Origin: Betaproteobacteria bacterium
GTDB lineage: Bacteria > Pseudomonadota > Gammaproteobacteria > Burkholderiales > JAHFQX01
Assembly (NCBI GenBank): GCA_023259135.1
Contig: JAHFQX010000028.1
Location: 1 to 37,350, forward strand
DNA length: 37,350 nt
Direction of reading: 5' to 3'
Below, one piece after another: positions 280-11,053 of the stretch (position 1 is the first letter of the stretch; each line of letters begins with the position of its first letter). Under the pieces are notes generated by a model. That model was not told where the DNA came from. It searched no databases and worked only from the letters and a program-made list of their open reading frames with translations. A program made the translations under genes and the position numbers.

Positions 280-915
280 TTAGATGGCAGGCTTGTCCCG
301 CAACAGGGCTACGACCTCACCGTCCTCCACCTGGTCGAAGTCGAGGTAAAACTGCCCGACGGCGTAGAAGTCGGCGGGGGTTTCCAGGCAGACCATTTCA
401 TCGGCGTAGGCCGCTACCCGCTGGACCGTTTCTGGCGGCGCCACCGGCACGGCGCATACTAGTTTCTCCGGCTCCTTGGCCCGCAGCGCGTGGAGCGCGG
501 CGATCATGGTGGAGCCGGTGGCCAGCCCGTCGTCCACCACGATGACGATGCGCCCCGCCGGATCGATGGGCGGGCGCACCGGGGTGTACTGGGCGCGGCG
601 CTTGGCCAGGGTGGCGAGCTGTTCGCGTTTTTCCCGTTCCAGGTATTCGGCGCCGGCTCCCGCCAGGGCGGCGTGCTCGGAGAGCGTGCACCAGCCCGAT
701 TCGTCCATGGCCCCCAGAGCGTATTCCGGATTGCCGGGAGCCCGCAGCTTGCGCACCAGCACGACGTCCAGTTGACCTTGCAGCTCGTGGGCGATGATCT
801 TGCCCATGGGCACCGCTCCGCGGGGAATTGCCAGCACCAGCGGGTTGCGGCCCCGGTAGCGGGCCAGCGCCTGGGCGAGCTGCCGGGCGGCGTCGGCCCG
901 GTCGCGAAACACCAC
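280..915 (-). CDS. phosphoribosyltransferase family protein (type I PRTase fold)
   Basis: A 211-residue protein with a type I phosphoribosyltransferase fold. The PRPP-binding loop is visible as VIVVDDGLATGST in the middle of the protein: two acidic residues followed by the small-residue loop that grips the PRPP phosphate. The N-terminal part, with AIPRGAVPMG and VVLVRKLRAPGNPEYALGA, is typical of the stand-alone PRTases found beside stress genes, whose natural base substrate is unknown. I chose the GTG at 915 because it lies 6 bp after the stop of the upstream universal stress gene; the ribosome site is weak, which suggests translational coupling. The pairing of PRTase and UspA is common in hypoxia-response clusters. 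Substrate and reaction cannot be told from sequence. Confidence 0.85.
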   Translation of the reverse strand: MVFRDRADAARQLAQALARYRGRNPLVLAIPRGAVPMGKIIAHELQGQLDVVLVRKLRAPGNPEYALGAMDESGWCTLSEHAALAGAGAEYLEREKREQLATLAKRRAQYTPVRPPIDPAGRIVIVVDDGLATGSTMIAALHALRAKEPEKLVCAVPVAPPETVQRVAAYADEMVCLETPADFYAVGQFYLDFDQVEDGEVVALLRDKPAI

Positions 916-921
916 GACGGG

Positions 922-1365
922 TCAGCGGTAAACCAGCACCGGCACCTTGGAGTGGGTCAGCACCTTGCGGGTCTCGCTGCCCAACAGCAGGCTTTCCAAG
1001 CCGCGGCGGCCGTGGGAGGCCATGAGGATCAGGTCGCAACCCCGCTCCTCGGCGGTGCGGATAATGCCTTCATAGGTGTGGTAGCTGGTGAGGTAGACGG
1101 TTGCGCAGGCCACCCCAGCCGCTTGGGCGGCCTGGGTTGCCTTGCCGAGAATGCCCTCGGCGCGTTTCTTGGATTCTTCCTTGAACTGCTGTTCCAAGGA
1201 GGGGTCCAGCGGCGCCCAATCGGAGTAGTAAACGATGGGGAACTCCGGTTCCACGTGGACCGCCGTAACCTTGGCGCCCAACATCTTGGCCAGTTCCAGG
1301 CCTTTTGTCAGCGCCTTGTCCGACTGGGCGGTGCCGTCGGTGGGCAATAAGATGTGCTTGAACAT
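922..1365 (-). CDS. universal stress protein, UspA family
   Basis: A 147-residue single-domain Usp. It begins with the family hallmark MFKHILLPTDG and ends in the nucleotide-binding pattern ASHGRRGLESLLLGS followed by VLTHSKVPVLVYR. This fits the ATP-binding G-2X-G-9X-G(S/T) motif, with the first Gly replaced by Ala, a common variant, so ATP binding is likely but not certain. I chose the ATG at 1365 over a start ten codons upstream because GGGAGA lies about 7 nt before it and because Usp proteins start there. It forms a two-gene unit with the downstream PRTase. Usp proteins act in the cytoplasm in stasis, oxygen limitation and envelope stress; the specific trigger here is unknown. Confidence 0.9.
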   Translation of the reverse strand: MFKHILLPTDGTAQSDKALTKGLELAKMLGAKVTAVHVEPEFPIVYYSDWAPLDPSLEQQFKEESKKRAEGILGKATQAAQAAGVACATVYLTSYHTYEGIIRTAEERGCDLILMASHGRRGLESLLLGSETRKVLTHSKVPVLVYR

Positions 1366-2798: not shown

Positions 2799-2813
2799 GC
2801 TAGGATGCCTAGC
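2799..2813 (-). terminator. small hairpin at the rtcB stop codon (possible terminator)
   Basis: GCTAGG-ATG-CCTAGC is a perfect 6-bp inverted repeat with a 3-base loop. It contains the rtcB stop codon (TAG, 2811-2809) and lies where convergent higBA and rtcB transcripts would meet. There is no T tract on either side, so it is at best a weak or factor-assisted terminator. Confidence 0.3.
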
Positions 2814-4239
2814 CCTTGATGCAGGCCTTGGGCCGCAACAAGGCCACCCGGCGGGCCAGCCCCGCCCGCTCGGTGGCTTCCGCCACCAGGTCCACGTCCT
2901 TGTAGGCTCCCGGAGCTTCTTCGGCGGCTCCCCTGAAAGAGCGGGTGCGGATCAGGATGCCTTGCTTCGCCAAGGCGTCCACCAGTTCCCGGCCGTGCCA
3001 GCGCTTCAGGGCTTGATTGCGGCTCATGGCGCGGCCGGCGCCGTGGCTGGCGGAAGCGAAGGCCCGGTTCTGCGCTTCCGGATTGCCCGCCAGGATGTAG
3101 GAGCTGGTGCCCATGCTGCCGCCGATGATGACCGGCTGCCCCGTCTCCTGGTAGGGTTCGGGTAGGCTGGGGTGGCCGGGCCCGAAAGCCCGGGTGGCGC
3201 CCTTGCGGTGCACGTAGAGCCGCCGGCGGCGGCCTTCCACCGTGTGGGTCTCGGCCTTGCAGGTGTTGTGGGAGACGTCGAACAGGGTGTCGAGCCGGGC
3301 CTCGGGAAGCACCGCGGCGAAGGCCTGCCGCGTGAGGTGGGCGAGGATTTGGCGGTTGGCCAGGGCGCAGTTGATGGCGGCATTCATGGCCCCCAGGTAT
3401 TGCCGCCCTTCGGCGGAGCGGATCGGAGCGCAAGCCAGTTCCCGGTCGGGCAGCCGGATGCCGAGGCGGGACGCGGCCTTGGCGAGGGTGACCAAGTAGT
3501 CGGTGCCGACCTGATGGCCCAGTCCACGGGAACCGCAATGGATGGACACCACCACCTGTCCGACATGCAGGCCGAAAGCCTGGGCCGCGGACGGGTCGAA
3601 AATCCGCTCCACCGCCTGCACCTCCAGATAATGGTTGCCCGAGCCCAGGGTGCCCATCTCGCCACGCTGGCGTTTTTTGGCAAGCTCGGAAACCTGGCGC
3701 GGATCGGCGTCCGCCACCCGGCCGCCTTCCTCGACGTAGTCCAGGTCGGCGACGCTTCCATAGCCCTGGGCGACTGCCCAGCGGGCGCCTCCTTCGAGAA
3801 CCTTGTCCAATTCGGGAGGAGCCAGCTTGATTTCGCCTTCCTCCCCCACTCCGGCAGGAATGACGCGGAACAGGGTATCGGCCAGCCGCTCTAGCCGCGG
3901 CGCGAGGGAATCCTGCTGCAGGTTGGTCCGCAGGCAGCGGATGCCGCAGGAGATGTCGAAGCCCACCCCCCCGGCCGAGATGATGCCTCCCGCCTCCGGA
4001 TCGAAGGCCGCCACGCCGCCGATGGGGAAGCCATAGCCCCAGTGGGCGTCGGGCATGGTCATGGCGGCTCCCACCAGGCCGGGGAGCTTGGCCACGTTGC
4101 GGATCTGCTCCAACACCTTGTCGTCCATGGTTTGCAATAGCGGCGCGCTGCCGTAGAGCCGGATCTCCGGGACGCCGGGCTCGGGGTGGGCCAGGGTCCA
4201 GCAATAGGGGGTAAGGGATTGGAGTTTCGCAATGTCCAT
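2809..4239 (-). CDS. rtcB: RNA 3'-phosphate/5'-OH ligase RtcB
   Basis: RtcB joins RNA 2',3'-cyclic phosphate or 3'-phosphate ends to 5'-OH ends using GTP and Mn2+. At 476 residues it has the usual full length. The metal and guanylylation residues match the known archaeal enzyme: Asp95 and Cys98 in GGVGFDISCG, Asn202 and His203 in GSGNHYLEVQ, His234 in IHCGSRGLGHQ, His324 in DVSHNTCK and His399 in SHGAGRAMSR, the last being the histidine that accepts GMP. The start ATG at 4239 follows the archease stop by 13 bp. It is the last gene of a five-gene minus-strand run, and its partner archease is directly upstream, as in many genomes. I see no rtcR-type sigma-54 activator or -24/-12 promoter, so its control differs from the E. 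coli rtcBA system. Confidence 0.97.
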   Translation of the reverse strand: MDIAKLQSLTPYCWTLAHPEPGVPEIRLYGSAPLLQTMDDKVLEQIRNVAKLPGLVGAAMTMPDAHWGYGFPIGGVAAFDPEAGGIISAGGVGFDISCGIRCLRTNLQQDSLAPRLERLADTLFRVIPAGVGEEGEIKLAPPELDKVLEGGARWAVAQGYGSVADLDYVEEGGRVADADPRQVSELAKKRQRGEMGTLGSGNHYLEVQAVERIFDPSAAQAFGLHVGQVVVSIHCGSRGLGHQVGTDYLVTLAKAASRLGIRLPDRELACAPIRSAEGRQYLGAMNAAINCALANRQILAHLTRQAFAAVLPEARLDTLFDVSHNTCKAETHTVEGRRRRLYVHRKGATRAFGPGHPSLPEPYQETGQPVIIGGSMGTSSYILAGNPEAQNRAFASASHGAGRAMSRNQALKRWHGRELVDALAKQGILIRTRSFRGAAEEAPGAYKDVDLVAEATERAGLARRVALLRPKACIKG

Positions 4240-4252
4240 AATTCAAATCTGT

Positions 4253-4669
4253 TCAAACATCCACCACGCAACGGGCTTCCCAGCCATCTTTTCTCCGCTC
4301 TACCTTGAGCATGGTGAGGGTGGCGCCCTTGACTTCCACGCCCGGCGATAGATCGGCCCGCCAGGCTTCGCCGCCGGCCTCGCCTCGCCAGCGGTTCCGC
4401 TCCCGGCTCAAGCGGAAGCGGCTGAAGATCAAGCCCCGCTCCCGGGCGGTGGCCAGCAGTAGATTAAGCCAATTCACCAAGGCGAATTCCAAATCCGCCT
4501 CTTCGAACTCTATCTTCGCCTCGGTCAGGGGACGGACCTCGGCGGGGTCGGCCATGATGGCGAAGGTGGCCACAGCCGCGGCTTCAAAGGCATGTTCCAC
4601 AGTGTCGCCGTGGCCGATGATGCCGATGTCGGCGTCGTGGTCGAAGTAGTCATAGCCCGACGGGATCAA
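4253..4669 (-). CDS. archease, RtcB activator
   Basis: Archease speeds RtcB guanylylation and turnover. The 138-residue protein starts with the family signature YDYFDHDADIGIIGHG, carries the conserved LVNWLNLLL helix, and ends RCVVDV, where the terminal Asp belongs to the metal site. The start is TTG at 4669, inside a 4-nt TTGA overlap with the nrdJ stop. GGGAGG 4 nt upstream supports this start and implies coupled translation. With rtcB 13 bp downstream the pair forms a complete RNA ligation unit. What is unusual is its translational coupling to a ribonucleotide reductase gene. Confidence 0.93.
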   Translation of the reverse strand: MIPSGYDYFDHDADIGIIGHGDTVEHAFEAAAVATFAIMADPAEVRPLTEAKIEFEEADLEFALVNWLNLLLATARERGLIFSRFRLSRERNRWRGEAGGEAWRADLSPGVEVKGATLTMLKVERRKDGWEARCVVDV

Positions 4670-6480
4670 TCGGCCTCCCGGGCGAGGGAACAGCAGTGGC
4701 TTTCGGGGGGCGTGGGTTCTTCCATCAGCACCGCTCCGGTTACCGGGTTGGAGCGGAAGGTGGTGCAGCCCTTGAGGTCCAGGCGGTAGGCTTCCCAGTA
4801 GAGCGAGACGAAATCCTCGAAAGGATAATCGGCCGGCACCGTGACCGTCTTTGATACGGCGTTGTCCACGTGCCGCTGCAATACCGCTTGCATGGCGAGC
4901 TGGGCGTGGGGAGAGACGTCGGCCACGGTGACGAAGGCGGCCGGCAGCGCGTCGCCAGGGGTCCGCTGTTGGAACAGACGATAGGCATAGTCCATCACCG
5001 GCAGCGTCTCCAGGGCTCCGTCGGCGCGGTGCATGCGACGCTGGTATTCAAAGCGAAACACCGGCTCCAGGCCGCTGGAGACGTTGTCGGCCAGCAGGCT
5101 CACGGTGCCGGTGGGAGCAATGGCGGTGAGATGGCTGTTGCGGATGCCGCGGTGCCAGATGCCGTCTACGATGTCTTCCGGCAGGCGGGCGATGAATTCT
5201 CCCTGGGTGTGTTCGGAGGCGACGAACTGAGGGAACGGGCCTTTCTCCTTGGCGAGCTGGATCGAGGCCCGGTAGGCCGAGTGACACACGGTTTTCATCA
5301 CCGTATCGGCGGCGGCCCGGGCTGCTTCGGAATCGTAGCGGAGGCCCAGCATGATCAAAGCATCCGCCAGCCCGGTGACGCCCAGCCCCAGCCGGCGGGA
5401 GGCTTGCGCCGCTTCCCGCTGCCGGGGCAACGGGAAGCGGGACAGGTCGTAGACATTGTCCAGCATGCGAGTAGCTACTTCCACGGTGGCGGCGATGGCT
5501 TGCAGATCGAGGCGGGCTTCCGGCGTGAAAGGCGCCTCGACGAAGCGAGGCAGGTTCACCGAGCCCAGGTCGCAGGCGCCGTAGGCGGGCAACGGTACCT
5601 CGCCGCAGGGATTGGTGGAGATGAGTTTCTCGGCGTACCACAGGTTGTTGGCGCGGCGTACCCGGTCGATGAAGATCACCCCCGGCTCGGCGGCTTCGTA
5701 GGTGGCGCCCATGATGCGTTCCCACAGGGCGCGGGCCGGAACCCGCCGCAGCACCCGGCAGGGTTCGGGGGGATGGCCGCCCCAGGCGCGCATCGCGATT
5801 TCCTCGTCCGGAGCGGCGGGTTCGCTGCCCAAGGGGAAGACCAGAGGCCAGTCGCCGTCCGCTTGCAAGGCCGCCATGAAAGCGTCGCTGACCAGCACCG
5901 ACAGGTTGAAGTGGCGCAGCGCTTCTCCATGGCGCTTGGCGTCGATGAAGGCTTCGATGTCCGGATGGTCGCAGCGCAGCGTGGCCATCATGGCGCCGCG
6001 GCGCGCCCCGGTGGACAAGATGGTGGCGCACATGGCGTCCCAGATGCCCATGAAGGATACCGGCCCGGAGGCGATGGCGCCGGCCCCCCGGGCCTGCATG
6101 CCGAAGGGCCGCAGCGTCGAGAAGTCGTAGCCCACTCCGCCTCCCTGCTGCATGGTCAGGGCGCCTTCCTTGAGACCGTCGAAGATGCCGTCCAGGGAAT
6201 CCTCGATGACTCCCATGACGAAGCAGTTGAACAGCGTGACCTTGCGGGGATTGCCCGCCCCGGCCAGGATGCGGCCGCCGGGCAGAAAGCGGAAATCCGC
6301 CAGGATGCCATGGAAGCGGGTCTCCCAAAGATCCTGGTGGGCGGGCTCGACGCTGGCCAGGGCCTTTGCCACCCGGCGCCAGGATTCGTGAATGGATTGC
6401 TCTCCGGCTTCCCGCAACCGGTACTTGGCGTCCCACAAGCGGGCCGAGACATCGCTCAGGAAGGGAGACGGTGGGTTCAC
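4666..6480 (-). CDS. nrdJ: adenosylcobalamin-dependent (class II) ribonucleotide reductase
   Basis: Class II reductases make deoxyribonucleotides with a B12-generated thiyl radical and need no oxygen. The 604-residue protein shows the redox Cys86 in LFNCFVMG, the radical-bearing Cys292 in NPCGEVPLP with Asn290 and Glu294, and the second redox Cys303 in GACDLGSVNL. The 11-residue spacing between the last two matches the Thermotoga NrdJ cysteines. A Cys-Cys pair near the end (596-597) is likely the shuttle that re-reduces the active site. No ATP-cone precedes the catalytic domain and no class I tyrosine-radical subunit lies nearby. The start is GTG at 6480, 16 bp after pncB, with a weak ribosome site. 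I found no cobalamin riboswitch upstream in the operon. Confidence 0.93.
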   Translation of the reverse strand: MNPPSPFLSDVSARLWDAKYRLREAGEQSIHESWRRVAKALASVEPAHQDLWETRFHGILADFRFLPGGRILAGAGNPRKVTLFNCFVMGVIEDSLDGIFDGLKEGALTMQQGGGVGYDFSTLRPFGMQARGAGAIASGPVSFMGIWDAMCATILSTGARRGAMMATLRCDHPDIEAFIDAKRHGEALRHFNLSVLVSDAFMAALQADGDWPLVFPLGSEPAAPDEEIAMRAWGGHPPEPCRVLRRVPARALWERIMGATYEAAEPGVIFIDRVRRANNLWYAEKLISTNPCGEVPLPAYGACDLGSVNLPRFVEAPFTPEARLDLQAIAATVEVATRMLDNVYDLSRFPLPRQREAAQASRRLGLGVTGLADALIMLGLRYDSEAARAAADTVMKTVCHSAYRASIQLAKEKGPFPQFVASEHTQGEFIARLPEDIVDGIWHRGIRNSHLTAIAPTGTVSLLADNVSSGLEPVFRFEYQRRMHRADGALETLPVMDYAYRLFQQRTPGDALPAAFVTVADVSPHAQLAMQAVLQRHVDNAVSKTVTVPADYPFEDFVSLYWEAYRLDLKGCTTFRSNPVTGAVLMEEPTPPESHCCSLAREAD

Positions 6481-6496
6481 GATGGCGACTCGCGGC

Positions 6497-7855
6497 TCAG
6501 TGGGGTTGCCGGTCCACCGCGGCGGCCAAGTCCCGCAGCGCCTGGGCGATGGTCACCGGATAGGGGGAGGGCCGGTGTTGCGGGCCGTGGAAGGTTTGCA
6601 ATTCCCTGAGGGGTTCCGGCAGCAGCGCCAACTGCTCGGCGCAGCGAGCCCGGGCGGCGGCCAGGTTGTCCCGTGGGATGAGCCGCCGGCCGCCTTGCAT
6701 CACCGGTTGCAGCAGGGGGGCGCCGGGTTGGGGATCGCTCTCCACGGTCACCGTGTCCCCGGCCATTTTTCCGTCATCGCCATAGCGCCGGTATACCACT
6801 TTTCGGCCAGGCCAAGTGGCCTTGCCTTCGGAGCGCTTGCGGCGGGCCAGTCCGGCGTATTCCTGAAGCTTGTAGGCGCAGTCCAGAAACGGCATGTCGC
6901 CGGAAGTGGTGAGATGGGTGCCGACGCCGAAGCCGTCGATGGGCGCCCCTTCCCCCAGCAGGCGCGCCATCTGGGTTTCGTCCAGGTTGCCGCTGGCGAA
7001 GGTGCCGATTTGGGGGAACCCCCCCGCGTCCAGAATGCCGCGCACGGCCTTGGCGTGCCGCGCCAAATCGCCGCTGTCCAGCCGCACCGATTTGACGGTG
7101 ATGCCTTCCCGGGCCAGTTGCGGCGCCAGTTCCACCACCTTGGCGACGGCGGCTTCGGTGTCGTAGGTGTCGATGAGCAGCACCACGTTGCCCGGATGGC
7201 AGCGGGCGAAGGCGGCGAAGGCTGCCATTTCGCTGGCGTGGGCCTCGATGTAGGAATGGGCCATGGTGCCGAATACCGGGATGCCGAAGCGGACTCCGGC
7301 CAGCACCGTGGCGGTGCCGGAAAATCCCGCGAGGCTGGCGGCGCGGGCCGCCAGCAAGCCGGCCTCGGCGCCGTGGGCGCGGCGCAGGCCGAAATCGACC
7401 AGCAGCTTGCCGGGAGCCGCCAACACGCAGCGGGCAGCCTTGGAGGCCACCAGGGTTTCGAAATGCAGCAGATTGATGAGCCGGCTTTCCGCCAGTTGCG
7501 CCTCGGGCATGGGCGCGGTGACCCGCAGGATGGGCTCATGGGGGAAGAATACCGTCCCCTCCGGCATGGCGTGGACGTCGCCGGTGAAGCGGAAGTCCCG
7601 CAAGGTATCCAAGAACCGGGCGGTGAAGCCGCCGTGGGCTTGCAGCCAGGCCAGGTCTTCCTCGGAGAACTTCAGATCTTCCAAATAGTCCAGCGCCTGG
7701 TCTAGGCCGGCGGCGACCAGAAAACGCCGGCCCGGAGGCAATTCCCGGGCGAAGAACTCGAATACCGCCGTGTCCTCCATGCCTTCGGCGTAATATGCCT
7801 GGAGCATGGTGAGCTGGTAGAGATCGGTGAGCAGCGGGCTGGCGGCATCACTCAT
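6497..7855 (-). CDS. pncB: nicotinate phosphoribosyltransferase
   Basis: It converts nicotinate, PRPP and ATP to nicotinate mononucleotide in the Preiss-Handler branch of NAD synthesis. The 452-residue protein has the family start LLTDLYQLTMLQAYY, then FEFFARELPPGRRFLVAAGL, the central SYIEAHASEMAAFAAF containing the conserved His region, LIDTYDT, VRLDSGDLA and FASGNLDE. These match the bacterial PncB2-like subfamily rather than E. coli PncB. The ATG at 7855 overlaps the pncA stop by 4 nt (ATGA), so the two enzymes of nicotinamide salvage are made together. Confidence 0.94.
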   Translation of the reverse strand: MSDAASPLLTDLYQLTMLQAYYAEGMEDTAVFEFFARELPPGRRFLVAAGLDQALDYLEDLKFSEEDLAWLQAHGGFTARFLDTLRDFRFTGDVHAMPEGTVFFPHEPILRVTAPMPEAQLAESRLINLLHFETLVASKAARCVLAAPGKLLVDFGLRRAHGAEAGLLAARAASLAGFSGTATVLAGVRFGIPVFGTMAHSYIEAHASEMAAFAAFARCHPGNVVLLIDTYDTEAAVAKVVELAPQLAREGITVKSVRLDSGDLARHAKAVRGILDAGGFPQIGTFASGNLDETQMARLLGEGAPIDGFGVGTHLTTSGDMPFLDCAYKLQEYAGLARRKRSEGKATWPGRKVVYRRYGDDGKMAGDTVTVESDPQPGAPLLQPVMQGGRRLIPRDNLAAARARCAEQLALLPEPLRELQTFHGPQHRPSPYPVTIAQALRDLAAAVDRQPH

Positions 7856-8439
7856 GGCGCAAGATCCTCCGCATGGATCAGCCGGGCGCCGAGGCGCTGC
7901 ATTTCCGCCACGGCCCGCTCGCCGTCGCCGGGCCGGACGTTGACGGCGCGAATAGCGTCCTCCAGCAGCCATACCTGGAAACCGGCCGCCAAGGCATCCT
8001 TCACGGTGTTGAGCACGCAGTAGTCGGTGGCCAGGCCGCCCACGACGAAGCGCGTCACGCCGCGGGCCCGGGCCAGCGCGGCCAATTCGGTGCCGGCGAA
8101 TGCCGAATAGGCGTCTTGTTCGGCGGCGGTGGCCTTGGAGAGGATGAGCGCCTCGCAGGGCAGGTTCAGTTTCGACGCGAATGCCGCGCCTGGAGTGCCG
8201 GCCACGCAATGGGGGGGCCAGGGCCCGCCCTGTTGCCGGAACGAGCAATGGCCGGGAGGATGCCAGTCCCGGCTGGCGAAGACGGGAAGCCGGTGGCGGA
8301 GGAAGACGGCGAGGGCATGGTTGAGGGGCGCGATAACGGCATCGCCTTCCGGCACCGCCAAGGCGCCCCCCGGCAGAAAGTCGTTTTGCACGTCCACCAG
8401 CAGCAGGGCGTCGCCGGGGTGAATGTTGGTATGGCTCAT
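7852..8439 (-). CDS. pncA: nicotinamidase / pyrazinamidase
   Basis: It hydrolyses nicotinamide to nicotinate, the substrate of the next gene. The 195-residue isochorismatase-fold protein has the Asp-Lys-Cys catalytic triad at Asp16 (LLVDVQNDF), Lys102 (LSKATA) and Cys141 (GLATDYCVLNT). Metal ligands Asp58, His60 and His64 are visible in SRDWHPPGHCSF. I chose the ATG at 8439 because GAGG lies 6 nt upstream and the family start fits; an in-frame start 12 codons earlier has no support. It is the first gene of the run pncA-pncB-nrdJ-archease-rtcB. No convincing promoter of its own was found in the divergent gap with the DUF2934 gene. Confidence 0.95.
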   Translation of the reverse strand: MSHTNIHPGDALLLVDVQNDFLPGGALAVPEGDAVIAPLNHALAVFLRHRLPVFASRDWHPPGHCSFRQQGGPWPPHCVAGTPGAAFASKLNLPCEALILSKATAAEQDAYSAFAGTELAALARARGVTRFVVGGLATDYCVLNTVKDALAAGFQVWLLEDAIRAVNVRPGDGERAVAEMQRLGARLIHAEDLAP

Positions 8440-8534: not shown

Positions 8535-8569
8535 TGCTAAAATTAAACTTTCTTTGGCGAATCTCTTGT

Positions 8570-8611
8570 TTGACATAAGTCAACGTTCCTCGCCATGGGA
8601 AGAGTTATATT
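8570..8611 (+). promoter_or_regulatory. class II FNR/ANR-type promoter (TTGAC-N4-GTCAA box plus TATATT -10)
   Basis: TTGACATAAGTCAA (8570-8583) is a perfect 14-bp palindrome of the CRP/FNR type. A -10 hexamer TATATT lies at 8606-8611. If transcription starts at 8618, seven bases after the hexamer, the palindrome is centred at -41.5, the textbook position for an FNR-type activator at a class II promoter. An AT-rich stretch (8537-8556) lies upstream. The leader to the DUF2934 start would be 65 nt. The GTCAA arms, rather than ATCAA, leave open whether the regulator is FNR/ANR or a DNR/NnrR-like NO sensor. Confidence 0.65.
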
Positions 8612-8682
8612 ACTTTTTAATAATCCTCAATAAGAGCCCAGGGGAGGGCCGGCCGATTAGCTTTTTATGCAGGAGTCAGGCA

Positions 8683-8976
8683 ATGAACAACACCTCCGCC
8701 ACCGCAAACCCCACCACTCGGCGCCGCAAGGCGCCGGTCACGGCGATGAAGGCCGCCAAGGCCCCGGTCGCGAAATCCACGGCCGCGCCGAAACGGAGTT
8801 CCAAGCCGAAGGCGAAAAAAACCGGAGCCGATCTCCCCGCTTCTCCGGAAGAGCGCTGGCGGATGATCGCCGTTGCCGCCTATTACCGGGCGGAGGCTCG
8901 CGGTTTTGCTTGCGGGCACGAGGATGAAGACTGGCGGGCGGCGGAAGCGGAAATCGATCGGCTGCTGGGAGCGTAA
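8683..8976 (+). CDS. DUF2934 protein with basic, low-complexity amino end
   Basis: The 97-residue protein has two parts. Residues 1-47 are rich in Lys, Ala, Pro, Ser and Thr and strongly basic, resembling histone-H1-like or nucleic-acid-binding tails. Residues 54-96, EERWRMIAVAAYYRAEARGF then HEDEDWRAAEAEIDRLL, match DUF2934, a short helical module of unknown function with the conserved G-x-DW-AE-EI pattern. I chose the ATG at 8683 because AGGAG stands 7 nt upstream. It is the first gene behind the FNR-type promoter and 94 bp ahead of hsp20. Binding to nucleic acid is an inference from charge only. Confidence 0.8.
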   Translation: MNNTSATANPTTRRRKAPVTAMKAAKAPVAKSTAAPKRSSKPKAKKTGADLPASPEERWRMIAVAAYYRAEARGFACGHEDEDWRAAEAEIDRLLGA

Positions 8977-9070
8977 CCGGCGGTTGCCTCGCCGCGGAAA
9001 TTGGGGGTTATCAAAAATGCCGGGTTGTTTGATTTGTTCCATAACTGCTTGCGATTAAGGAGATGACATC

Positions 9071-9508
9071 ATGGCCAACATTACCCGTTACGACCCTTTC
9101 GGCGATTTGGGTGATTTCTTCAAGGATGATTTCTTCAAGGGTTTCTTCTTCAAGCCGGTCCGCTTGCCGGAGGCTCAGTCCGTCGCGCAGATCCGCATGG
9201 ACGTGACCGAAGACGACAAGGCCTACACCGTCCGGGCCGAGCTTCCCGGAGTCAAGAAGGAAGACATCAAGATCTCCCTGGACGGCAATCAGGTCACCAT
9301 CAGCGCCGAAGTGAAGCAGGAGAAGGAGGAGAAAAAAGGCGAGAAGGTGATTTGCAAGGAGCGCTACCACGGTTCCGTCTACCGGAGTTTCAGTTTGGCG
9401 AGCGATGTGGACGAAGCCCAAGCCAGCGCCAAGCATGCGGATGGCGTGCTGGAGGTGGTGCTGCCCAAGAAGGCGGGCGGAGCCGTCAAGCAGATCGCGA
9501 TCCAGTAA
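9071..9508 (+). CDS. small heat shock protein, Hsp20 / alpha-crystallin family
   Basis: An ATP-independent holdase chaperone of 145 residues. The amino end (11-28) is unusually rich in Phe, Asp and Lys (FFKDDFFKGFFFKP), the variable substrate-binding arm. The alpha-crystallin domain spans about 40-134, with AELPGVKKEDIKISL and the conserved DGVLEVVLPKK near its end. The terminal IAI at 142-144 is the IxI motif that docks between subunits in the oligomer. AAGGAG lies 8 nt before the ATG. No sigma-32-type promoter or ROSE-like thermometer was recognised in the 94-bp gap. With a FNR-type promoter upstream, oxygen-linked rather than heat-linked control is plausible. A strong hairpin follows the gene. 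Confidence 0.95.
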   Translation: MANITRYDPFGDLGDFFKDDFFKGFFFKPVRLPEAQSVAQIRMDVTEDDKAYTVRAELPGVKKEDIKISLDGNQVTISAEVKQEKEEKKGEKVICKERYHGSVYRSFSLASDVDEAQASAKHADGVLEVVLPKKAGGAVKQIAIQ

Positions 9509-9515
9509 GCCACGG

Positions 9516-9543
9516 CTCGGGCCCGGCGGGCGCCGGGTCCGAG
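9516..9543 (+). terminator. 12-bp GC-rich intercistronic hairpin after hsp20
   Basis: CTCGGGCCCGGC (9516-9527), loop GGGC, GCCGGGTCCGAG (9532-9543) form a 12-bp stem with a single G-U pair. There is no T tract, so it is unlikely to be a complete intrinsic terminator. It more likely protects the 3' end of the hsp20 message or partly attenuates transcription into the next gene, giving more Hsp20 than downstream proteins. Confidence 0.65.
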
Positions 9544-9574
9544 GATGTCTTGCACTCCTGTCCGGGAGAGTCCC

Positions 9575-9913
9575 ATGGCAACTTTCGTCTTTCCTGCTTC
9601 CCGGCAAGAGGCTATCGTCCGGGTCGAGGGCCGCTTCGATCACCGGGTTGCCACCGAATGCTTCGCCACCCTGCGGCGTGCTCCCCATTTATGGTGGAAA
9701 AAACTCACGGTCATCATGGCGGGTGTGGAAACCCTGGATTTGCAAGGGATCGAATCCTTGCTCGCGCTCCGGGAATTCACCGGCGGCGAAGCCGAACTGT
9801 GGCTCTCCGGATGCGGTCCTGCGGTGGGCCGGATGCTGGAAGTGGCGGGCTTGCGCCGCTGTTTCGTGATCCGCGATGTTCCGCCCTTTGCCCATGAAGC
9901 CCCAGAAATCTAG
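9575..9913 (+). CDS. STAS-like domain protein without the phosphorylatable serine
   Basis: The 112-residue protein looks like a single STAS domain, the fold of anti-sigma-factor antagonists. Strand IVRVEGRFDHRV is followed by VIMAGVETLDLQGIESLLALRE and ELWLSGCGPAVGRMLEVAGL. In SpoIIAA-type proteins the Asp of the DSSGL motif is followed by the regulated Ser; here the equivalent stretch is LDLQG (54-58), with Leu in place of Ser. Classical phosphorylation switching is therefore not expected. The ATG at 9575 is preferred because GGGAGAG precedes it; an ATG ten codons earlier lies next to the hairpin. No anti-sigma kinase is nearby. The family call is moderate, and the partner is unknown. Confidence 0.6.
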   Translation: MATFVFPASRQEAIVRVEGRFDHRVATECFATLRRAPHLWWKKLTVIMAGVETLDLQGIESLLALREFTGGEAELWLSGCGPAVGRMLEVAGLRRCFVIRDVPPFAHEAPEI

Positions 9914-9975
9914 CCCGGGCCGGCCGGTAGCGGAACGAGTTGTCCGCGGCGGATGGCGGAGGCCGGGGCGCCGTT

Positions 9976-10001
9976 TCCGTGACACGGATTCGGTGACCGA
10001 A
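9976..10001 (+). promoter_or_regulatory. two abutting 13-bp palindromes upstream of the CBS gene
   Basis: TCCGTGACACGGA (9976-9988, arms of 6) is followed without a gap by TTCGGTGACCGAA (9989-10001, arms of 5). Both share a GTGAC core. They lie in the 120-bp gap between the STAS-like and CBS genes, 32 bp before the CBS start codon. They could be a tandem operator for a dimeric regulator or two small leader hairpins. No -10/-35 pair was recognised around them. Confidence 0.5.
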
Positions 10002-10033
10002 ATCGCCGTAGCGCTTGCCTGAAGGAGATTGAC

Positions 10034-10483
10034 ATGCGGATCGGGGAAATTTGCATTCGGGAAGTGGTGTGCGCGCCGGCCGAAACCAGCGTCCAGCAGG
10101 CCGCCCAGCTCATGCGACGGCACCATGTGGGAGCCTTGTTGATCACCGAGGAGCGGGCGGGAAAGCGTTACCCGATGGGGATCGTCACCGACCGGGACGT
10201 GGTGGTGGGGGTGGTCGCCGAAGGATTGGTTCCGGGGGTCATCACCGTGGGGGACATCATGGGGGGCGAGTTGGTGACGGTGGGGGAAAGCGAGGAGGTT
10301 TTCGAAGTTATTCAAAAAATGCGGTTCAAGGGAGTGCGCCGGGTTCCGGTGGTGGAGGAGACGGGTGTGCTAGTGGGTGTTCTGGCCGTCGACGACTTGG
10401 TCGATCTGCTGGCGGAGAGCCTGACCGATCTATCCAAGCTGATCGCCCGGGAGCAATTTCGCGAGCAGCAAACCAGGAAGTAG
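10034..10483 (+). CDS. CBS-domain pair protein
   Basis: The 149 residues consist of two tandem CBS motifs (about 1-60 and 68-130) forming one Bateman module that usually senses adenine nucleotides. Visible signatures are MRRHHVGALLITE, YPMGIVTDRDVV, IMGGELVTV, MRFKGVRRVPVVEE and GVLAVDDLVDLLA. The first motif's GIVTDRD is the usual ribose/phosphate contact. No enzyme domain is attached, so it is a stand-alone sensor, like the hypoxia-induced Hrp1 proteins of actinobacteria. The ribosome site GAAGGAG lies 7 nt before the ATG. The next gene starts 21 nt downstream, so CBS and hibernation factor are probably co-expressed. Confidence 0.9.
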   Translation: MRIGEICIREVVCAPAETSVQQAAQLMRRHHVGALLITEERAGKRYPMGIVTDRDVVVGVVAEGLVPGVITVGDIMGGELVTVGESEEVFEVIQKMRFKGVRRVPVVEETGVLVGVLAVDDLVDLLAESLTDLSKLIAREQFREQQTRK

Positions 10484-10504
10484 CGAAATTCACGGAGAGC
10501 GAGC

Positions 10505-11053
10505 ATGCAGCAGCCATTACAGATCACCGTCCGGGATTTTCCGCATTCGGAGGCCTTGGATGCCCACATTCGGGACAAGGCCGCCAAGCTGGAGTCGCTG
10601 TTTCCCGACATCGTGGGGTGCCGGGTGGTGGTGGAATTGCCGCATCGCCACAAGCATCAGGGCAAGCCATTCAACGTGCGGCTGGAAATCAAGGTGCCGG
10701 GTGACGAACTGGTGGTGAACCGGGACCGGCATGAGGATGTTTACGTCGCGCTGCGGGACGCTTTCGATGCGGCCAAGCGCCAGTTGGAGGACTATGCCCG
10801 CAAGCTGCGAGGCGCGGTGAAGGTCCACGAGCCCGTGGTTTTGGGCAAAGTGACCCGCATTTTCCCCGAGGAGGGATTCGGTTTCATCGAATCCCGCGAT
10901 GGCCGCGAATTGTATTTTCACCGGGAGAACGTGGTGAGCTCCGATTTCGACCGCCTGGACGTGGGGGCCGAAGTGCGGTTTATCGAGGAGATGGGCGGCG
11001 AAGGCTGGCAGGCCAAGCGAGTGACCGCCGGCAAGCACCGTTTGCCTCAGTGA
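10505..11053 (+). CDS. ribosome hibernation factor (HPF/RaiA) fused to a cold-shock domain
   Basis: A 182-residue two-domain protein. Residues 1-105 are an HPF/RaiA domain (LQITVRDFPHSEALDAHI, then VYVALRDAFDAAKRQLEDY) that binds the 30S decoding centre and silences ribosomes in stasis. Residues 111-175 are a cold-shock domain with the RNA-binding motifs GFGFI (124-128) and LYFHR (136-140), the same fold that HPF-like proteins could use to hold mRNA or rRNA. It lacks the dimerising tail of long HPF, so 100S formation by tail swapping is not expected. GGAGAG lies 7 nt before the ATG. It ends 13 bp from the convergent phospholipase gene. Such fusions are known in proteobacteria, but their action is little studied. 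Confidence 0.9.
   Translation: MQQPLQITVRDFPHSEALDAHIRDKAAKLESLFPDIVGCRVVVELPHRHKHQGKPFNVRLEIKVPGDELVVNRDRHEDVYVALRDAFDAAKRQLEDYARKLRGAVKVHEPVVLGKVTRIFPEEGFGFIESRDGRELYFHRENVVSSDFDRLDVGAEVRFIEEMGGEGWQAKRVTAGKHRLPQ

Follow-up and report, generated by a model that had tools for sequence, protein, structure and literature searches.

The window analysed here is the whole of contig C86, 37,350 bases from the 2.58 Mb genome of a betaproteobacterial relative of the nitrifiers, which is 99% complete and is the sole member of its family in our genome sample. It carries a row of five plus-strand genes that ends against a convergent phospholipase A1 gene just past position 11053, and Pfam recovered all five product classes (DUF2934, Hsp20, STAS-like, CBS-pair and HPF-cold-shock) that the initial annotation had named. 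The first gene (8683-8976; Pfam 1.7e-14) encodes a DUF2934 protein of 97 residues in which a basic Lys/Ala/Pro-rich tail (residues 1-56, pI 11.6), modelled with low confidence by AlphaFold2 and probably disordered, precedes a confidently modelled two-helix hairpin at residues 55-96. Histone-H1-like tails of this composition are common in the order, and that the protein binds nucleic acid is our guess. A second DUF2934 architecture is also found in the order, with a long charged C-terminal region in place of the basic tail; it occurs in L054, L061, L062, L072, L271, L273 and L283, where this region ends in a recurrent motif, AW-DLK-G-EKAW-DMR-AL--IA-RFK.

The hsp20 gene (9071-9508; Pfam HSP20 7.5e-21) follows after 94 nt, and a gap of 120 nt separates the third and fourth genes, so that there is room for internal promoters within the row. 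No Rfam match to a ROSE element or other RNA thermometer was found upstream of hsp20; a single L31-leader match, which lies within the HPF gene on its minus strand, fell below the gathering score. The STAS-like gene has an ORF that opens at 9545, with a better ribosome-binding site at 9575, and we place it at 9575-9913 (Pfam STAS_2 2.2e-07; PDB TM1442, E=0.0036). A role for its product as a SpoIIAA-type anti-anti-sigma factor or partner-switching antagonist was rejected, because DLQG stands in place of DSxG and the phosphorylatable Ser/Thr is missing; the protein scores 29 bits against NCBIfam ant_ant_sig, for which the cut-off is 53, and has no detectable homologue in the loci of the order that we examined. 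The CBS-pair gene (10034-10483; Pfam 8.5e-24) lies directly upstream of the last gene, an arrangement also seen in 12 of 80 other loci (L131-L210) that form our neighbourhood sample for this last gene family.

The product of the fifth gene (10505-11053) fuses an S30AE domain to a cold-shock domain (PF02482-PF00313; Ribosomal_S30AE 2.4e-18, CSD 1.4e-10) and matches the solved Coxiella HPFcold protein over its full length (PDB 9t0z chain 9, E=2.5e-49 over 176 residues); by homology it is an HPFcold hibernation factor. The earlier suggestion that this gene parks ribosomes agrees with the solved structure, the available text of which describes Coxiella HPFcold as binding the 70S ribosome and covering the anti-Shine-Dalgarno sequence of 16S rRNA (PMC13392368).

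Upstream of the row lies the FNR/DNR-type box TTGACATAAGTCAA (8570-8583), the window's only match to TTGACN4GTCAA within one mismatch. Its two 5 bp arms pair as an inverted repeat without a mismatch; the ATAA between them lacks self-complementarity, and thus the description of the box as a perfect palindrome holds for the arms and not for the centre. The hexamer TATATT (8606-8611, plus strand) predicts a transcript start at 8618, which puts the box centre, 8576.5, exactly at -41.5, as had been proposed, with the -10 element ending at -7. Both the TTGAY-N4-RTCAA operator pattern of FNR/DNR class II promoters and its centring at -41.5 relative to a -10 hexamer are therefore found here. Reading TTGACA as a sigma-70 -35 element was rejected, as no promoter passes in the scan and TTGACA and TATATT are 30 nt apart. 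By chance, 42 of 100 shuffled sequences contain a box within one mismatch in 37 kb, and a lone box in a stretch of that size would carry no significance of its own; its significance comes from counts across the genome, from the geometry of the -10 element and from conservation. From sequence and placement we take the box to be an FNR/DNR-class operator at a class II activator position, of a type that does not on its own separate O2 from NO.

Pattern searches of the whole genome found TTGAY-N4-RTCAA at 21 sites, against two for the reversed control. The stricter TTGACN4GTCAA, a search for which had been recommended, occurs at three sites against one for the reversed pattern. Genes neighbouring the boxes include ccoN (cbb3 oxidase), hemN, nirS, nrdD, another usp gene and those for a tetrapyrrole methylase and a P-type ATPase, a set that is by its composition a predicted FNR/DNR regulon. 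Of the 21 boxes, 12 have TANNNT at precisely the class II -10 offset, in one orientation, whereas each of 60 other offsets has it in 0-2 boxes; all three double-C boxes, including that of the window, are among the 12. The window also contains the Usp gene (922-1365, minus strand) and the phosphoribosyltransferase gene (280-912, minus strand) that had been listed together with the row, and both are indeed present, but the pattern search placed no box within one mismatch near either, and their control by such a box is rejected. Elsewhere in the genome (contig C11, L037:15199-15212), an FNR-type box separates a second hsp20 gene from a nitronate monooxygenase gene; TAGTAT occupies the class II position on the monooxygenase side, and this contig also carries an FNR gene some 10 kb away.

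Loci drawn from 200 genomes of the order served to assess conservation. In the 350 nt upstream of the gene, 9 of 53 DUF2934 and 10 of 74 hsp20 genes have a perfect box, compared with none for the reversed pattern and 0.06-0.12 for shuffles, and most of these boxes are followed 21-22 nt later by a -10-like TANNNT. Among 43 boxes in the relatives' loci, TANNNT stands at offset 0 in 12, at offset -1 in 14 and elsewhere in few. DUF2934-hsp20 pairs that overlap by ATGA have the box upstream in G022 and G152; G125 has the pair and the box with a poorer -10 element. Boxes also occur at CBS, usp, archease and HPF genes of the same islands, and HPFcold genes have a box of their own in three of 78 cases (L180, L191 and L192, all betaproteobacterial; control 0); in two of these TANNNT misses the class II position by a single base. 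The operator is thus kept at orthologous genes, and since it recurs at DUF2934 and hsp20 the reading does not fail on lack of conservation, one of the outcomes that had been named as refuting it. Given that 44 of the 53 DUF2934, 64 of the 74 hsp20 and 75 of the 78 HPFcold genes have no perfect box, FNR control appears to be a recurrent option rather than the rule, and among the loci examined the full order DUF2934-hsp20-STAS-CBS-HPFcold was seen only in the source genome. In two relatives (L235:10528-10541 in G122 and L236:7633-7646 in G080) a box in the hsp20 promoter stands between TATATT and TTTTAT; there hsp20 and a PAS-like sensor gene diverge, and nearby lies an fnr-like gene whose product has a cysteine-rich N terminus.

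The genome also encodes candidate regulators of both kinds that had been sought. Six proteins exceed the HTH_Crp_2 cut-off, of which three are of the FNR type, with CX2CX5C, a further Cys near position 120 and ETVSR in the recognition helix; the one compared matches A. fischeri FNR at 8.8e-56. One other is DNR-like, being without these cysteines and having an EHFSR helix, and matches Pseudomonas aeruginosa DNR (3dkw) at 4e-34. These four are candidates for the box, whose sequence does not single one out.

Taken with the box, its geometry, the regulon and its conservation, these regulators lend good support from DNA and comparative genomics to the programme triggered by oxygen or NO that the initial annotation envisaged. 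We consider it very probable that an FNR/DNR class II promoter turns on proteostasis and ribosome hibernation in response to falling oxygen; binding, activation, co-transcription, the oxygen response and the physiological role are what we infer from the DNA. As oxygen falls FNR would regain its 4Fe-4S cluster, or a DNR-like protein would respond to NO, and the dimer would bind at -41.5 and recruit RNA polymerase to the TATATT promoter, from which DUF2934-hsp20-STAS-CBS-HPFcold would be transcribed as one unit. Hsp20 would then hold unfolding proteins, while HPFcold would block the decoding site and cover the 16S rRNA end that carries the anti-Shine-Dalgarno sequence, which would let idle ribosomes survive. 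We presume that the CBS and STAS proteins act as regulators and that DUF2934 is a basic companion protein that binds nucleic acid.

The intergenic region that holds the box is shared with a divergent minus-strand operon (2809-8439) that the initial annotation did not mention. Its five genes, all assigned by Pfam, overlap or are separated by at most 16 nt, and encode PncA nicotinamidase of the isochorismatase fold (7852-8439), PncB nicotinate phosphoribosyltransferase (6497-7855), which is the window's second phosphoribosyltransferase, an NrdJ-like ribonucleotide reductase large subunit (4666-6480), archease (4253-4669) and RtcB RNA ligase (2809-4239). No gene for a separate small subunit adjoins the NrdJ-like gene, whose product is presumably a class II ribonucleotide reductase. 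HPFcold has genes of this arm in its neighbourhood in 24 of the 80 other loci, and archease or rtcB in 13 of the 80, in beta- and gammaproteobacteria and Nitrospirae, several times adjacent to it; L191 has the order box-HPFcold-archease-rtcB, and Nitrosospira mixes the two arms as archease-rtcB-usp-HPFcold-pncA-pncB on one strand. Because the arm genes recur near HPFcold in these ways, both arms are likely to belong to a shared programme. It is a further step to propose that the one box drives both, adding NAD salvage, oxygen-independent dNTP supply and RNA repair to protection, a proposal that would extend the preferred explanation and does not exclude it. In its favour, besides these neighbourhoods, are the tightness of the operon, whose first gene starts 131 bp from the box, and the induction of nrdJ by Dnr in P. 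aeruginosa (PMC5645315). However, the candidate -10 element at the mirror-image class II position, TTTAAT (8542-8547, minus strand), is weak and has no A at -11, and the exact divergent arrangement was found in no other genome examined, so that box control of this arm is plausible but weak and we judge the proposal to fall a little short of an even chance.

A more tentative suggestion, which we regard as possible but doubtful, is that one low-oxygen box governs a system to shield and mend the 3' end of 16S rRNA, in which HPFcold would cover the anti-Shine-Dalgarno tail in hypoxia, RtcB with archease would religate cut tails, and parked ribosomes would then restart. This reading comes from the 13 of 80 loci in which HPFcold neighbours archease or RtcB, in one case with an FNR-type box in front. 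Escherichia coli RtcB is described, in the text available, as religating the 16S rRNA end after its cleavage by MazF (PMC12186496, citing Temmel 2017).

Whether or not the box serves both arms, the signal could be NO instead of oxygen, with the DNR-like protein rather than FNR at the box. That protein has the E-x-x-S-R helix, and the genome has nirS and boxes at nir genes, yet the box is one that the three canonical FNR proteins would recognise as well, and the hsp20 islands of G080 and G122 adjoin fnr-like genes, and we consider this reading unlikely. Far less probable is a sigma-32 heat-shock promoter formed by TTGACA and a CGCCAT 14 nt downstream: TTGAMA-N11-16-CNCCAT does match the window at 8570 and nowhere else, but CGCCAT is absent from the aligned upstream regions of relatives, in which the box and the -10 element 21-22 nt later are kept, and no RNA thermometer was found. 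That the palindrome is a chance occurrence and the genes are constitutive or otherwise controlled would fit the absence of the box from most orthologues, but the control counts and the -10 geometry make this the least probable reading of all.

The preferred reading, an FNR/DNR class II promoter acting on the DUF2934-HPFcold row, provides a directly testable link between FNR oxygen sensing and HPFcold ribosome hibernation in betaproteobacteria. The structure of HPFcold has been described only recently and its control is not covered in the literature that we found, in which there is also no report of HPFcold or DUF2934 under FNR. The locus places RtcB and archease beside a factor protecting the same rRNA end that RtcB is able to repair. 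For DUF2934, on which hardly anything has been published, it suggests a condition under which to search for a phenotype.

Among known systems, the lxa (low-oxygen-activated) locus of Burkholderia cenocepacia is likewise a betaproteobacterial cluster of Hsp20 and Usp genes; according to the text available it is required for anoxic persistence, the FNR/ANR-type regulator BCAM0049 is suspected of controlling it, and it includes a flavin/nitro-reducing protein that resembles the box-associated nitronate monooxygenase of the source genome (PMC6127331). As described in that text, lxa differs in having 50 genes, with six Usp and metabolic genes, against one box and two short operons here, and HPFcold, CBS, DUF2934, NrdJ, NAD salvage and RtcB are not named in it (PMC6127331). 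With one Usp gene and no large cluster in the window, the locus is, by analogy, one that would work like lxa without being a member. In Rhizobium leguminosarum, rlv_1399 is an Hsp20-family gene behind a TTGA-N6-TCAA anaerobox that is FnrN-dependent and induced at low oxygen, although it is a single gene, in an alphaproteobacterium, of another sHSP class (PMC11784457). The fifth gene has its full-length homologue, with the same S30AE and cold-shock domains, in CBU_0020 of Coxiella burnetii, for which the available text reports no oxygen or FNR control (PMC13392368).

The pseudomonad ANR/DNR regulon has the same type of box and includes denitrification genes, nrdD, hemN, cbb3 oxidase and usp among its targets, whereas the literature searched does not report HPFcold or DUF2934 among the targets of ANR. 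The DosR regulon of Mycobacterium tuberculosis, which has a two-component regulator in place of FNR and an unrelated box, offers an analogy only. RafH is another dual-domain type of HPF, without a cold-shock domain. The likeness is that alpha-crystallin, Usp and the hibernation factor RafH are jointly induced by hypoxia in the DosR regulon (PMC10799931). Pseudomonas putida has three FNR paralogues, as does the source genome (PMC4505428), and in Accumulibacter an inferred FNR regulon that includes usp, hemN, cco and nirS was then followed by transcriptomics (PMC6446978).
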